Positions 4,341 to 51,124 of a DNA stretch of 64,000 nucleotides are shown here, piece by piece. The stretch comes from Oscillibacter sp. (GTDB lineage: Bacteria > Bacillota > Clostridia > Oscillospirales > Oscillospiraceae): assembly GCA_022791875.1 (NCBI GenBank), contig JAAVZX010000040.1, positions 1-64,000 on the forward strand, in the 5' to 3' direction. A program made the position numbers and the translations under genes. Positions within the stretch are counted from its first letter, which is position 1, and every line of letters starts with the position of its first letter. The notes beneath the pieces were generated by a model. It saw only the letters and a list, made by a program, of their open reading frames with translations, was not told the origin of the DNA and did not search any database.

Positions 4341-6518
4341 TTACAGGTGCAGTACCCGGTCGCGGATTTCCTGGGTGCGGCCCTGGTTCCAGAATTGGGT
4401 GCCGATGTAGCCGCAGGTGCGGCGGGCTACGTTCATTTTGTCCTGGTTCGTGTTGCCGCACTTCGGGCAGCGCCAGAGCAGCTTGCCCTGCTCATCCGCG
4501 ATCTCGATCTCGCCGTCCCAGCCGCATTCCTGGCAGTAATCACTCTTTGTATTCAGCTCCGCGTAGATGATATTGTCGTAGATGAACTTCATCACCTGGA
4601 GCACCGCCTCCAGATTGTTCTGCATGTCCGGAACCTCTACGTAACTGATGGCTCCGCCGGGGGACAGGTGCTGGAACTGGGCCTCGAATTTCAGCTTGTC
4701 GAAGGCGTTGATTTTCTCCGTTACGTGGACGTGATAACTGTTCGTAATATAGCCCTTGTCCGTGATGCCCTCAATGACGCCGAAGCGGCGCTGGAGGCAC
4801 TTCGCAAACTTGTAGGTCGTGGACTCCAGAGGCGTGCCGTAGAGGCTGAAATCTATGTTGTGCTTCGCTTTCCACTGGCGGCAGGCGTCGTTCATGTGGT
4901 TCAGAACCCGCAGGGCAAAAGGAGTCGCCGACGGGTCCGTGTGGCTCTTTCCCGTCATGTACTTCACGCACTCGTACAGACCCGCGTAGCCCAGGGAAAT
5001 CGTCGAGTAGCCGCCGTAGAGCAGCTTATCGATGGGCTCCCCCTTTTTCAGACGGGCGCAGGCGCCGTACTGCCAGAGAATCGGAGCCACGTCCGACGGC
5101 GTGCCCTTCAAACGCTCGTGGCGGCACATCAAGGCCCTGTGGCACAGCTCCAGACGTTCGTCAAAAATCTTCCAGAATTTCTCAATGTCACCCTTGGAGC
5201 TTAGGGCCACGTCCGGCAGGTTGATGGTCACCACGCCCTGGTTGAAGCGCCCGTAATACTTGGGCTGGTTCGTCTCCGGGTCCACGTAGGGGGTCAGGAA
5301 GCTGCGGCAGCCCATGCAGGTGTAGCAGTGGCCCTCCCCGTTCTTGTCCACTTTCAGCTCCAGCATCTTCTTCTCGGAGATGTAGTCCGGCACCATCCGG
5401 CGGGCCGTACACTTCGCCGCCAGGCGGGTCAGATACCAGAAGCGGGAGTCCTCGTGGATGTTGTCCTCCTCCAGGACGTAGATGAGCTTCGGGAAGGCGG
5501 GGGTGATCCACACGCCGTCCTCGTTCTTCACGCCCTCGTAGCGCTGCTCCAGGGTTTCCTCGATGATCAGTGCCAGGTCCGCCCGCTCCCGCTCGTTCTT
5601 CGCTTCGCCCAGGTACATGAACACGGTCACGAAGGGGGCTTGTCCATTGGTGGTCAGGAGAGTCAGCACCTGGTACTGGATGGTCTGGACGCCCCGGCGC
5701 ACCTCGTCCCGCAGGCGGTCCTCCACCAGGCGGCTGATCTGCTCCTCCGCCAGGTTCACGCCGATGTCCACCATCTCCTGCTCCACCGTCTTCCGGATTT
5801 TCTGACGGCTCACGTCCACGAAGGGGGCCAGGTGGGCCAGGGAGATGGACTGCCCGCCGTACTGGTTGGAGGCGACCTGGGCGATGATCTGCGTGGCAAT
5901 GTTGCAGGCCGTGGAGAAGCTGTGGGGCCGCTCGATGAGGGTCCCGGTGATGACGGTGCCGTTTTGCAGCATGTCCTCCAGGTTCACCAGGTCGCAGTTG
6001 TGCATGTGCTGGGCGAAGTAATCGGAGTCATGGAAGTGGATGATGCCCTCTTTGTGGGCGTCCACTATGTCGGGGGGCAGCAGAAGCCGCTCGCTCAAAT
6101 CGCGGGAGACCTCGCCAGCCATGTAGTCCCGCTGCGTGGAGTTGACGACGGGATTTTTGTTGGAGTTCTCCTGCTTGGCCTCCTCGTTGCAGCACTCGAT
6201 GAGGCTGAGGATTTTATCGTCGGTGGTATTGCTGCGCCGGACGAGGGATCGGGTATAGCGGTAAGTCACGTAATTCTTAGCCACCTCGAAAGCGCCATGG
6301 GCCATGATCTGGTACTCGACCATATCCTGAATATCCTCGACAGAAGGAGATCGATTCATCTTCTGACAGGACAGCTCAACGGACTCCGCGATCCGCTGAA
6401 TCTGCACCGGCGTCATCCGATTACTCTCTTCGATACTCTCGTTGGCTTTCGTAACAGCGGCCAGAATCTTAGTGATATCAAACCCCACCTCTGTACCATT
6501 CCGCTTAATAACTTTCAT
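4341..6518 (-). CDS. nrdD: Anaerobic ribonucleoside-triphosphate reductase
   Basis: N-terminal ATP-cone (VIKRNGTEVGFD), GGxS-type core, C-terminal YCQECGW...CPKCGN and RTCGYIG glycyl-radical region. Confidence 0.95.
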   Translation of the reverse strand: MKVIKRNGTEVGFDITKILAAVTKANESIEESNRMTPVQIQRIAESVELSCQKMNRSPSVEDIQDMVEYQIMAHGAFEVAKNYVTYRYTRSLVRRSNTTDDKILSLIECCNEEAKQENSNKNPVVNSTQRDYMAGEVSRDLSERLLLPPDIVDAHKEGIIHFHDSDYFAQHMHNCDLVNLEDMLQNGTVITGTLIERPHSFSTACNIATQIIAQVASNQYGGQSISLAHLAPFVDVSRQKIRKTVEQEMVDIGVNLAEEQISRLVEDRLRDEVRRGVQTIQYQVLTLLTTNGQAPFVTVFMYLGEAKNERERADLALIIEETLEQRYEGVKNEDGVWITPAFPKLIYVLEEDNIHEDSRFWYLTRLAAKCTARRMVPDYISEKKMLELKVDKNGEGHCYTCMGCRSFLTPYVDPETNQPKYYGRFNQGVVTINLPDVALSSKGDIEKFWKIFDERLELCHRALMCRHERLKGTPSDVAPILWQYGACARLKKGEPIDKLLYGGYSTISLGYAGLYECVKYMTGKSHTDPSATPFALRVLNHMNDACRQWKAKHNIDFSLYGTPLESTTYKFAKCLQRRFGVIEGITDKGYITNSYHVHVTEKINAFDKLKFEAQFQHLSPGGAISYVEVPDMQNNLEAVLQVMKFIYDNIIYAELNTKSDYCQECGWDGEIEIADEQGKLLWRCPKCGNTNQDKMNVARRTCGYIGTQFWNQGRTQEIRDRVLHL

Positions 6519-6654: not shown

Positions 6655-6998
6655 GACGGGGAGCCTCCGGCGGGTTACTTTTTCTCGAGAGAAAAAGTAA
6701 CCAAAAAGAGCTTTAACTCGACGCGAATCCGGTGGTTGATGTGGCTTTCCGCGCGGTAATGCGGTGCGGTGCGTGTGGTCATTCCCTTGATCAAGAGAAT
6801 GACCACATATTTTTTATATAAAACAACCTGTGGGACCTTCTATGCCTATAGAAGGTCCCACCTGCACGCTCTGCGTTACCGTGTGACAGGCTTTCGCAAC
6901 CACCAGAGTATAGAGCGGTATGAAAGCTCTTTTCGCTTCCTTTTCTCTCGAGAAAAGGAAGCCGCCGGAGGCGGGAAGCCCCGCTGGCAGCCCCCCGT
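6655..6998. repeat. ~340-bp multi-hairpin element (class B), copy 1
   Basis: Outer hairpins GGTTACTTTTTCTC-GA-GAGAAAAAGTAACC and CTTCCTTTTCTC-TC-GAGAAAAGGAAG, inner hairpins TGTGGTCATTC...GAATGACCACA and GTGGGACCTTCTAT...ATAGAAGGTCCCAC; CCTCCGG box at both ends. Confidence 0.88.
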
Positions 6999-7002
6999 AA
7001 CG

Positions 7003-7932
7003 TCAGAACGTCACGACCTCCTGCGCAGGCTTCGCGCAGGGTGCGGAGGTTTCGATATACATGACGGGGCCTTTGCCCTGGTAGGCGGTGTGGTCTTCCA
7101 TGGCCATTTTGGCGGTTACTTCGATCCATTCGCGGTTGTGGTAGCTGTCCAGCTGCTTGCCCTTGGCAACCATGCCCAGGAATTGGATGTCGTTTTCGCA
7201 GCAGACCATGGCGAAGCGGCCCGGACAGTGGACGCCGGGGTAGTTCTTTGAGTGGCACATCAGCAGCTTCATGTGGACCTCTTTGCCGTCGTAGCGGTCC
7301 GGGTGGTCCATTACGTCTACATACCATACGCCAAAGTCTTCGTCCGGAATGTCAATTATTTTCTGGTTCAGGTCGAAGGGGCACTCGTCTCCTGTCAGAT
7401 AGTCCTCGCTGCTGCCGTCTTCGTTCTCCAGGTAAATGTCCGCGCGGCGGTTTACCATCCTCAGATTACGCTTTCTCAGGGCGTCCCGCAGCTCCGGGGT
7501 GCAGCGGTTGAAAACCAACATGTCCGCGTTGGTGATTTTCTCCATCATCAGCTGGCCCATGTTCTTCGCGTACACCTCAAAGGTTGACGCCTCCACAAAG
7601 GTCATGATCTGATAGAGAATCCAGTTGGCGGGGAGGACCTCCCTGTAAAGACGCTCCATGGACCACATGCCGTTGTACTCGATCAGAACCTGCTTCGGGC
7701 GGTATTTCTTCTCCAGCGCTTTCATGCGGGAGCAGGTCAAATCTTCCTCGTCCTCAATATTTTCCACCGTCACGTTGTCCAGCGCCTTCGGGTTGTACTC
7801 CTCCTCCCCCTCCTCACAGCGGAGCAGGAGGGTCCGCTCCCGGCGGGCGAAGCCGTCCTCCAGGATGCCGTTGATAAAATTGGTCTTGCCGGCGTCCAAA
7901 AAACCGGCAATCAGATATACTGGGATGTCCAT
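7003..7932 (-). CDS. G3E/CobW-like GTPase with C-terminal DUF1980/TIGR03943-like domain
   Basis: N-terminal GFLDAGKTNFI P-loop; C-terminal CPGRFAMVCCENDIQFLGMVAKGKQ...WIEVTAK. Confidence 0.75.
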   Translation of the reverse strand: MDIPVYLIAGFLDAGKTNFINGILEDGFARRERTLLLRCEEGEEEYNPKALDNVTVENIEDEEDLTCSRMKALEKKYRPKQVLIEYNGMWSMERLYREVLPANWILYQIMTFVEASTFEVYAKNMGQLMMEKITNADMLVFNRCTPELRDALRKRNLRMVNRRADIYLENEDGSSEDYLTGDECPFDLNQKIIDIPDEDFGVWYVDVMDHPDRYDGKEVHMKLLMCHSKNYPGVHCPGRFAMVCCENDIQFLGMVAKGKQLDSYHNREWIEVTAKMAMEDHTAYQGKGPVMYIETSAPCAKPAQEVVTF

Positions 7933-48568: not shown

Positions 48569-49699
48569 ATGCCGGAATTTCAGCTTTACGACGTAAACGG
48601 TTTCTACAGCGCCCGGGTCCCCGTCAGCATCAGCAGCCGCGCCGCCGTCTTCGCCTCCCGGCGCTGGATCTACCGCGTCGGCCCAAACTGGGACGCCCTC
48701 CGCACCGCCTGCCCCAACGACAGCGGCGTCATCGTCCAGACCGCCCAGACCCCCGATGAAATCCTGGCCCTGGAGTGGACGGACGGCCAGGAGCTGTCCC
48801 TGCTCCGCTTCACCCACGAACTCACCCTCCTGGACCGCCGCCCCATCTTCCCCCTGTCCCCCCACGACGACCCCGCCCTCTGCGCCCTCACCCCCCAGGC
48901 CGCCTTCTGCGTCACCTACGAAAACATCACCCCCTCAGAAGACCCCACCGAACCCCCAACAGCCGAATTTCTCCACATAGACCGCTTCGACCTGGCCGCC
49001 GGCACCCCCACCCGCCTCACCGTCACCCCCAAAGACATGCGGGACCTTCTCAACGAAAAAATCGACTTCCAATCCTTCCTCCTCCCCTGGGACGCTGCCC
49101 TCTGGGTCCACCACGACCGCATCCTCCTCCGCATGGAAATCACCTCTACCCCAGACTGCTGGGACGCCCGCACCACCCGCCCCATCATATTGGATCTCGA
49201 CACCCGCACAGCCGCCAAATCCATCCTCTGGCACGACGTCATGCACAACATGGTCCCCGACGACTACGCCGCCCGCCCCTGCTTCTTCGACTTCGACCGC
49301 GGCATCATGTGGACCCACCCCAGCAAGGTCCCCGAGCACACCGCCCCCTACCCCATCCGCTCCGCCCCCAACCTCCCCCTAATCCCCCACGAATCCATCT
49401 CACCCCACTCCTTCATCAGAGAAGACCTCACCCCCTGGCAAGCCGTAACCAACTTCTGCGACTACTTCGACGCCCAAACCTGCCTCCGCCGCACCCTCCA
49501 CCCCCTCTCCCCCTCCCTCGACTCCATCTCCCCCACCGCCGCCTGCCTAAAATTCCCCCTCCCCACACCCCCAGACCCCTACGCCTTCCCACTCCTCTGG
49601 CACGCCTCCCTCATCTTCACCCCTCGCTCCGACTCCCTCCCCCTCGTCACTCCCCTGCACACCGCCGCGTGGGAGCCTCTGCGGTGCCGCAGGGTGTGA
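48569..49699 (+). CDS. Hypothetical protein, extremely C-rich coding strand toward 3' end
   Basis: ATG with RBS aaaaggag; single intact frame; no recognised family. Confidence 0.6.
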   Translation: MPEFQLYDVNGFYSARVPVSISSRAAVFASRRWIYRVGPNWDALRTACPNDSGVIVQTAQTPDEILALEWTDGQELSLLRFTHELTLLDRRPIFPLSPHDDPALCALTPQAAFCVTYENITPSEDPTEPPTAEFLHIDRFDLAAGTPTRLTVTPKDMRDLLNEKIDFQSFLLPWDAALWVHHDRILLRMEITSTPDCWDARTTRPIILDLDTRTAAKSILWHDVMHNMVPDDYAARPCFFDFDRGIMWTHPSKVPEHTAPYPIRSAPNLPLIPHESISPHSFIREDLTPWQAVTNFCDYFDAQTCLRRTLHPLSPSLDSISPTAACLKFPLPTPPDPYAFPLLWHASLIFTPRSDSLPLVTPLHTAAWEPLRCRRV

Positions 49700-49702
49700 C
49701 GA

Positions 49703-50045
49703 TACGGGGGGCCTCCGGCGGCCTACTTTTTCTCGAGAGAAAAAGTAGGCAAAAAGAGCTTTCATACCGCTCTGAGGCGTGGTGGTTGTTTTGGCTTTGC
49801 CGCACGGTAACGGTATAATTGCGTATGTGGTCATTACCTTGGGCAAGGTAATGACCACATGGAATTTTTATAGGATCCAAAATCCGGTGGGGGCTTCCAT
49901 GCCAATGGAAGTCCCCACCTGCACCGCGCCCCGTCACCGTGTGACAGGCCATATCAACCACCAGGGCATAGAGCGGATCTAAAGCTCTTTTCGCTTCCTT
50001 TTCTCTCGAGAAAAGGAAGCCGCCGGAGGCCCCCCGTCCCCCGTC
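49703..50045. repeat. ~340-bp multi-hairpin element (class B), copy 2
   Basis: GCCTACTTTTTCTC-GA-GAGAAAAAGTAGGC ... CTTCCTTTTCTC-TC-GAGAAAAGGAAG with GGGGGGCCTCCGGCGGC / GCCGCCGGAGGCCCCCC termini. Confidence 0.9.
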
Positions 50046-50149: not shown

Positions 50150-51124
50150 ATGAAAAAGAAAACGTTTGCTTCGCTGGCGATGTCTGTGTTTGTGCTGGCG
50201 GGTTGTGTGCAGCCTTGCGCTGCCGCGCTTCAGCCGGGGTATGTGAATCCTGTTGCTATGCACGTTGAGCGGGCTGAAACGCTGATCCATGACCAAATCG
50301 TTCCACTTGCGGAAACCGCTGATACCATGCTCCTTCCCACGGCCTCCGGGACGGCGGTCAAGTCCGGCGGCGGGGCGGAGATCGACTACTCCAATACCAA
50401 GGATGGTTACGTTATGGTCCGCTTCGCGGGGGCCAACAGCAAGCGGCTGAAAGTCCAGGTGGCCGGGCCTTCCACTACATATAATTACGACCTTCCTACC
50501 GGGAACTGGGTCACGTTCCCCCTCTCTGACGGGAACGGCTCCTATAAAATCTCAGCGCTTCAAAATACCTCCGGCAAAAAATACGCCGTGCTGGCTACCG
50601 TCTCCTGCACCGTTACCCTCGTGGACGAGTTCGCGCCCTTCCTGCGGCCCAACCAGTACGTGGACCACGCCTCCGCGCCCAACAGCGTCCAGAAGGCCAA
50701 GGACCTCACCGCTGGTGTCACCGCGCCTCTGGAAAAAGTGGCGAAAATCTACGACTATGTTGTGGCAAACCTCACCTACGACAAGGATAAGGCCGCTACC
50801 GTAAAGAGCGGCTATCTGCCTGTGCTGGACACCGTGCTGGCTACCAAAAAGGGCATCTGCTTCGACTACGCCTCCCTCATGGCCGGGATGCTCCGCAGTC
50901 TGGGGATTCCCTGCAAGCTGGTGGTCGGCTACGCGGGGACCGCGTACCACGCCTGGATCAGCGTCTGGACCAAGGAAACCGGGTGGATCGACGGCGTCAT
51001 CTACTTCGACGGCACCACCTGGCAGCGGATGGACCCCACCTTCGCCTCCTCCAGCAATAAGAGCGAGTCCATCATGAAGTACATCGGCGACGGCTCCAAC
51101 TATACCACCAAGTACCTGTACTGA
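50150..51124 (+). CDS. Transglutaminase-like lipoprotein
   Basis: MKKKTFASLAMSVFVLAGC lipobox; GICFDYASLMAGMLRSLGIPCKLVVGY...HAWISVW...WQRMDPTF Cys-His-Asp triad context. Confidence 0.92.
   Translation: MKKKTFASLAMSVFVLAGCVQPCAAALQPGYVNPVAMHVERAETLIHDQIVPLAETADTMLLPTASGTAVKSGGGAEIDYSNTKDGYVMVRFAGANSKRLKVQVAGPSTTYNYDLPTGNWVTFPLSDGNGSYKISALQNTSGKKYAVLATVSCTVTLVDEFAPFLRPNQYVDHASAPNSVQKAKDLTAGVTAPLEKVAKIYDYVVANLTYDKDKAATVKSGYLPVLDTVLATKKGICFDYASLMAGMLRSLGIPCKLVVGYAGTAYHAWISVWTKETGWIDGVIYFDGTTWQRMDPTFASSSNKSESIMKYIGDGSNYTTKYLY

Follow-up and report, generated by a model that had tools for sequence, protein, structure and literature searches.

Repeats of the BoxC/PIT/TMECO kind, which can form intrastrand triplexes, were reportedly treated by Hoyne and Maher in 2000 and 2002. 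Under the ITxF definition of Holder et al. (2015; PMC4666352), a class II intrastrand triplex comprises, from 5' to 3', a pyrimidine tract, a purine tract and a third tract, again of purines, with stems of 6-15 nt and loops of 1-6 nt. BoxC/PIT-type triplexes form in vitro but in vivo footprinting of BoxC/TMECO was negative, and their cellular relevance has been uncertain; purine-motif triple helices were reported not to form in RNA, and the inverted TMECO pairs of E. coli always consist of two different types (PMC4666352). REP sequences of the GTAG and CGTC superfamilies, and the REPINs built from them, form a second group of extragenic palindromes with hundreds of copies, occurring as singles and as inverted pairs, among which heterodimers are frequent (PMC3733652).

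The window analysed here is a stretch of 64,000 nucleotides from a metagenome-assembled genome of Oscillibacter sp. (Oscillospiraceae; G000, 2.95 Mb, 84.6% complete), hereafter the source genome. A preliminary description made from the letters of the window had reported a multi-hairpin element of ~340 bp, present in two copies with one shared order of parts and folding on itself as a branched cruciform. The two copies and their shared order were borne out by the sequence, the conserved cores lying at 6661-6973 and 49708-50033, and AAAAGAGCTTTCATACCGCTCT, found on the left of copy 2, recurs on the right side of copy 1 as its exact reverse complement. The idea of a single ~340-bp unit was not supported: the element is two arms of a short hairpin repeat placed tail to tail, and the repeating unit is one arm, ~150 bp long here and ~105 nt in relatives. 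In the source genome the arm runs in the order outer box CCTCCGGCGG, hairpin H1, tail AnGARCTTT, a variable module, GCCTGTCACACGGTAACG, a GC-rich hairpin H3 and a T-run. It starts with H1 of the form N5-Tn-CTYGARAG-An-N'5, followed by C and the purine tail AnGAR and then by ~55 nt ending in CGGYAACG. Beyond this genome the arm terminates in CGGYAACG, and the GC-rich H3 extension is the form of the source genome. The parts of the two copies are as follows.

6661..6973, unstranded: copy 1, an inverted pair of two unlike arms (end-profile hits, copy alignment, Pfam neighbours)
7003..7932 and 4341..6518, both - strand: neighbours of copy 1, a CobW-like gene and nrdD (Pfam)
6674..6701, + strand: left-arm H1 of copy 1, GTTAC-T5-CTCGAGAG-A5-GTAAC (sequence; 131 H1 cores compared)
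6703..6710, + strand: left-arm mirror tail of copy 1, A5-GAG, the would-be third strand (sequence; run length and base coupled to H1)
6774..6807, + strand: left-arm H3 hairpin of copy 1, then a T-run, terminator-like on the + strand (sequence, H3 covariation, T-run counts)
6830..6861, - strand: right-arm H3 hairpin of copy 1, terminator-like on the - strand (terminator scan, H3 covariation)
6926..6933, - strand: right-arm mirror tail of copy 1, A4-GAGC on the - strand (sequence; coupling)
6935..6962, - strand: right-arm H1 of copy 1, GCTTCC-T4-CTCGAGAG-A4-GGAAGC on the - strand (sequence; H1 core comparison)
49708..50033, unstranded: copy 2, an inverted pair (end-profile hits, gene context, Pfam), 8 bp past the stop codon of the gene at 48569-49699 (+), with a transglutaminase-domain gene lying downstream at 50180-51124 (+)
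49722..49749, + strand: left-arm H1 of copy 2, CCTAC-T5-CTCGAGAG-A5-GTAGG (sequence)
49751..49758, + strand: left-arm mirror tail of copy 2, A5-GAG (sequence; coupling)
49825..49860, + strand: left-arm H3 of copy 2, then a T-run (sequence; H3 covariation, T-run counts)
49886..49919, - strand: right-arm H3 of copy 2 (sequence; H3 covariation)
49984..49991, - strand: right-arm mirror tail of copy 2, A4-GAGC on the - strand (sequence; coupling)
49993..50020, - strand: right-arm H1 of copy 2 (sequence; end-profile hits)

Both copies were calculated to fold far more stably than their shuffles, copy 1 as RNA (-171.8 kcal/mol vs -89.6 +/- 4.9, z -16.7) and copy 2 as DNA (-119.2 kcal/mol vs -46.1 +/- 4.1, z -17.7). 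A search of the source genome returned ~40 further places with the element, answering the earlier question of whether more copies exist. Arm density was determined from six contigs read whole, which amount to 798 kb or 27% of the genome and contain 92 arms, in 20 inverted pairs and 52 single arms; extrapolated genome-wide this gives ~340 arms. Their distribution was uneven, with 0 arms in the first 106 kb of contig C84 and 40 in the 253 kb of C66. The outer flanks vary between GTGCCTGCATACGGGGGGCC, GGCTGCCAGCCGGGCTTCCGG and bare GTGCCTCCGGCGG, and CCTCCGGCGG is sometimes doubled (e.g. L012, L016), so that the element appears to have a variable border in this genome. It was also observed that single arms are often trailed by another GC-rich hairpin family, GTAGGGGCGGACCTCTGTGTCCGCCC...CGCRACCACC (L019, L022, L028, L034, L035, L041), which looks like a separate dispersed repeat.

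With a covariance model of the arm core, the arm was found in 45 of 86 genomes of the genus, in 97 of 401 genomes of the family and in 42 of 106 genera, and relatives thus carry it as well. Some Oscillospiraceae genomes hold dozens to hundreds of copies, part of these counts being 'at least' values. The named public carriers of the motif are MAGs of Oscillospiraceae, Oscillibacter and Clostridiales, and the source genome belongs to the same family. No match to the arm core was obtained in IMG/VR, phages or plasmids. Head-to-tail arrays of arms with a period of ~120 bp were seen in two relatives (G072:C1:227049-227452 and G094:C29:36704-37010).

The core of the arm can be written as N5-Tn-CTYGARAG-An-N'5-C-An-GAR-C, an example of H1 with its mirror tail being GGTTACTTTTTCTCGAGAGAAAAAGTAACCAAAAAGAGC, and its three tracts are coupled in both length and base. 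Over lengths of n = 3 to 7, the T-run, the A-run and the A-run of the tail are equally long in 230/238 arms, with ~128/132 within the source genome (126 exact triples and two with only the T-run off by one) and 102/106 outside it. When tail lengths were shuffled (n=131), T-run and tail length matched in at most 88 arms, compared with 128 observed. Y, the R paired with it and the R of the tail are concordant in 234/238 arms (CGG in 137, TAA in 97), although this coupling has only two states and could partly reflect common descent. In arms with CTT the tail reads GAA in 97 of 98 and AAG in 0 of 98; the tail therefore mirrors the purine side instead of complementing the pyrimidine side in antiparallel orientation. 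Two simpler pairings of the tail were considered and rejected. Antiparallel pairing with the T side of H1 needs the tail AAG, which the CTT arms never have, and pairing with the other arm of a pair does not agree with the arms of a pair being always unlike and with the coupling also holding in lone arms.

Judged from sequence, a mirror tail of this kind is what a class II purine-motif intrastrand triplex would show. The tracts TnCTY, RAGAn and AnGAR follow each other in the layout defined for ITxF, with stems of n+3 = 6-10 nt and loops of 2 and usually 6 nt. A DNA fold of the arm gave the hairpin only, the energy model having no triplex term. The lower stem N5/N'5 also covaries and occupies the loop that the triplex needs, which speaks against the triplex; hairpin and triplex would have to alternate. 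If the triplex forms, the constraint behind the coupling acts on DNA, since triplexes of the purine motif were reported not to form in RNA.

The explanation that we favour, with a probability of roughly 0.55, is that the ~340-bp element consists of two unlike arms in inverted orientation, members of a palindromic repeat family of the triplex type with high copy number, which lies behind stop codons and resembles BoxC/PIT and REP repeats. In single-stranded DNA, as exposed during replication, repair or transfer, a class II purine-motif triplex formed by H1 and the tail would compete with the 13-bp hairpin, and the folded DNA would be what an enzyme copies and moves. Insertions would persist mainly at gene ends, where they may be least harmful or somewhat useful, and as RNA behind a gene the arm would provide a stable 3' end. 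Points against this explanation are the negative in vivo footprinting of BoxC/TMECO, the failure to find a mobilising enzyme with the arms examined, and the location of some pairs between divergent genes, where use as a terminator is not obvious. More tentatively, and against the odds as we see them, a purine-motif DNA triplex may be kept by selection in living bacteria, the folded single strand being what a mobilising system not yet described uses to put the repeat at stop codons. If the triplex reading is true, three strands covary across dozens of genera. Hundreds of natural variants, with joint changes of the hairpin and the third strand in five lengths and two base states, offer a comparison that has so far been missing for BoxC/PIT-like triplexes, and the three-way coupling is the part that deserves the attention of specialists.

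We would class the element as a new relative of the BoxC/PIT repeats, rich in A/T, that works alike but is not a member by sequence. It shares with them the class II (purine-motif) layout of pyrimidine, purine and third strand, the high copy number, the intergenic location, the formation of inverted pairs from two different types only, and the lack of a nearby transposase, here in the 27% of the genome read. In contrast to the G/C-rich BoxC/PIT/TMECO repeats, the Oscillospiraceae arm is A/T-rich and unrelated in sequence, and the BoxC/TMECO sequence CCCTCNCCC-N3-6-GGGNGAGGG-N3-GGGNGAGGG does not describe it. The arm further differs in its 2-nt first loop, in a second loop paired with the 5' flank (an extra 5-bp stem) and in a core that sits in a longer arm of 105-150 nt. 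TMECO follow no rule of orientation or distance (PMC4666352), whereas the arm lies mostly in sense and is strongly tied to stop codons. A literature search by sequence and by taxon returned no description of this Oscillospiraceae repeat.

Genes of the source genome were called with a home-made hexamer ORF caller, and the arms were found to be intergenic, with their stop-facing ends almost always 0-40 bp past a stop codon. Pairs lie between convergent genes in 7/20 cases compared with 81/639 junctions overall, and some occupy tandem and divergent gaps. Outside the source genome, 108 arms were placed relative to genes: 68 were sense in tandem gaps, 22 convergent, 13 antisense in tandem gaps and 0 divergent. 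Between tandem genes the arm thus follows the gene direction in 68/81, about six standard deviations from an even split by our own arithmetic, in which some orthologous loci are not independent. H1 mostly begins at most 2 nt from the stop codon or overlaps it, and the stop codon often lies within H1 itself, where CTTGA contains TGA and GTAA contains TAA. It was observed that the 5' side of H1 alone can form 2-4 tandem repeats upstream of a complete H1 (L066, L070, L073, L080, L093, L302), for example CCTACTTTTTCCCGAGAGA three times, as if copies accrue on the stop-codon side. A cassette of the attC type was considered for the stop-codon position and discarded, for the arms adjoin housekeeping genes whose order is conserved (truB-ribF, pta) and matched outer boxes were not observed. 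From its position and sense orientation, the arm would seem to act within the message or at the end of it. The repeat is widespread in gut bacteria and provides ordinary genes with stop codons and presumably with 3' ends.

These observations bear on the suggestion, already made in the preliminary description, that the element could be a structured RNA. According to this reading it would be a 3'-UTR or intercistronic element that protects mRNA, uncouples translation or terminates transcription, and the tail coupling would be a tertiary contact of the RNA. The sense orientation past stop codons, kept in strong register across genera, leaves room for such a role, as do the stable RNA fold and the T-run past H3. 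The mirror coupling is left unexplained by RNA alone, since the tail matches base for base in the manner of the purine motif and such triplexes were reported absent in RNA (PMC4666352). The 13 antisense arms among the 108, and arms between divergent genes in the source genome, do not fit either. Rfam 15, searched with the window included, gave no match at the gathering score, in line with the earlier statement that no matching known element was recognised; one match to U7 at E 0.03 was below that score and was taken as chance. The leftover mismatches of H3, read on the gene-sense strand, were A-C in 15 cases and G-T in 4; these numbers are small, and they show no G-U excess as expected of selection on RNA and do not favour selection on the gene-sense RNA strand. 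For this reason we prefer a DNA repeat similar in kind to BoxC/PIT or REP that was co-opted at gene ends, and regard a purely RNA-based element as rather doubtful.

Part of a role at message ends could be termination. In its sequence the arm of the source genome has the form of an intrinsic terminator, a GC-rich hairpin followed by a T-run, with T4 within 14 nt past H3 in 84 of 98 H3 hairpins, and a terminator scan of copy 1 found 2 sites compared with 0.8 in shuffles. H3 and its T-run should, as predicted, stop transcription, and a pair would be a two-way terminator. The pairs resemble the two-way intrinsic terminators between convergent genes in having a GC hairpin and T-run on both strands and in being over-represented at convergent sites. 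They differ in lying also between divergent genes and in their conserved core, H1 with the mirror tail, which is no terminator. Because the short arms of relatives usually lie in operons without H3, termination is not the ancestral role.

The stem covariation noted earlier is real. Among 75 distinct versions of the inner hairpin H3, 191 two-sided changes were counted against 12 one-sided ones, and 96.4% of cells are paired compared with a shuffle maximum of 80.0%. The lower stems of H1 fall into nine types in the source genome and twelve outside it, nearly all fully paired. Selection on the structure, which had been concluded from the stems, does not follow from perfect stems alone, since palindromes that undergo template switching can retain such stems. 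The structure might accordingly be under no selection at all, the repeats being relics in which one side of a palindrome was copied onto the other. The scarcity of one-sided intermediates in H3 would agree with this, and so would the incomplete H1 copies, repeats of its 5' side, at L070, L073 and L080. Template switching yields inverted and not mirror repeats, however, and the tail is matched across genera; orientation and stop-codon register are also left unexplained. We therefore regard the relic reading as improbable.

The triplex-type repeat reading includes the rule that paired arms are unlike. Within a pair the H1 types were never equal (0/39, 6.8 expected, P 0.0004), and the same was true of the H3 stems (0/31, 5.2 expected, P 0.0009). 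Bacteria tend to lose long perfect palindromes. We propose that the arms must differ because identical ones would make such a palindrome, which would be prone to loss. The long-range cruciform stem as a selected feature was not upheld, for pairing between arms is not kept: the arms of a pair are of different types and, in the alignment of copies, GGTGGTTG/CAACCACC change independently from copy to copy. In another genus of the family (G405), independent inverted pairs of short arms (~117 bp) were seen at L264 and L300; their arms do pair mutually (AAAGAACTTTAAACTG...CAGTTTAAAGTTCTTT), and L264 lies between convergent stop codons.

Sites with and without the element exist at two orthologous loci, in comparisons made between species with the closest genome compared at ~77% identity, and the element is therefore able to insert. 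Between truB and ribF, the relatives read have a stop codon, a short spacer and the next start, while in the source genome this gap holds an arm plus another hairpin (~158 bp), and in three other Oscillospiraceae it holds an arm in the opposite orientation. At the second locus an arm follows directly past the TGA in G046 and is absent from G072 and G073. BoxC/PIT/TMECO repeats have likewise been found by others to vary between strains.

How the arms are moved was approached through the neighbouring genes. A search for an associated transposase had been suggested, but none lies between facing arms in the 27% of the genome read, the genes enclosed there being ordinary, and an autonomous parent element was for that reason rejected for these contigs. 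The arms might also be REP sequences moved by a RAYT, a Y1 transposase, as in REPINs. Their high copy number, extragenic and palindromic nature, single and inverted-pair forms and frequent heterodimers (as in REP dimers, PMC3733652) would suit this. The unit of 105-150 bp is long compared with 20-40 bp, though, its consensus has no unpaired GTAG or CGTC tag, and no RAYT association was found: the source genome, 84.6% complete, has no Y1 transposase (Y1_Tnp), the Y1 transposases in 35 of 86 genus genomes do not follow the distribution of the arms (of 20 arm carriers, only 8 have one), and none of 41 Y1 loci in relatives has an arm. A RAYT-driven origin is accordingly very unlikely.

The preliminary description had also offered a MITE-like substrate for transposition of single-stranded DNA, of which the dispersed, structured, covarying and insertable character holds, as do the short non-coding form and the inverted ends. 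A classic MITE, non-autonomous with terminal inverted repeats and mobilised in trans by a DDE transposase, is the least probable reading, since despite inverted repeats at both ends, dispersal and loci that differ in carrying it, inspection of the flanks by eye showed no target duplication (the borders being variable), no transposase-bearing copy was found in the 27% of the genome read and no Y1 in the genome, and single arms (52) outnumber pairs (20) and are the rule beyond the genus.

Another dispersed element of ~430 bp was observed in G030 and G179, genomes of another family of the same order (L153, L155, L158, L160, L162, L176). It has no Rfam match, both its ends read GTTACTTTTTGC(TTGT or TCGC)GCAAAAAGTAACCAAAAAGC, and its conserved interior contains CCGTAGCTTAGTACAAGC, GGACCGGACTTTT and GAAACTCAC...GGTNGGATGA. 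Watson-Crick pairing seems to link its loop and tail in their changes, TTGTGC occurring with GCACAC and TCGCGC with GCGCGC.
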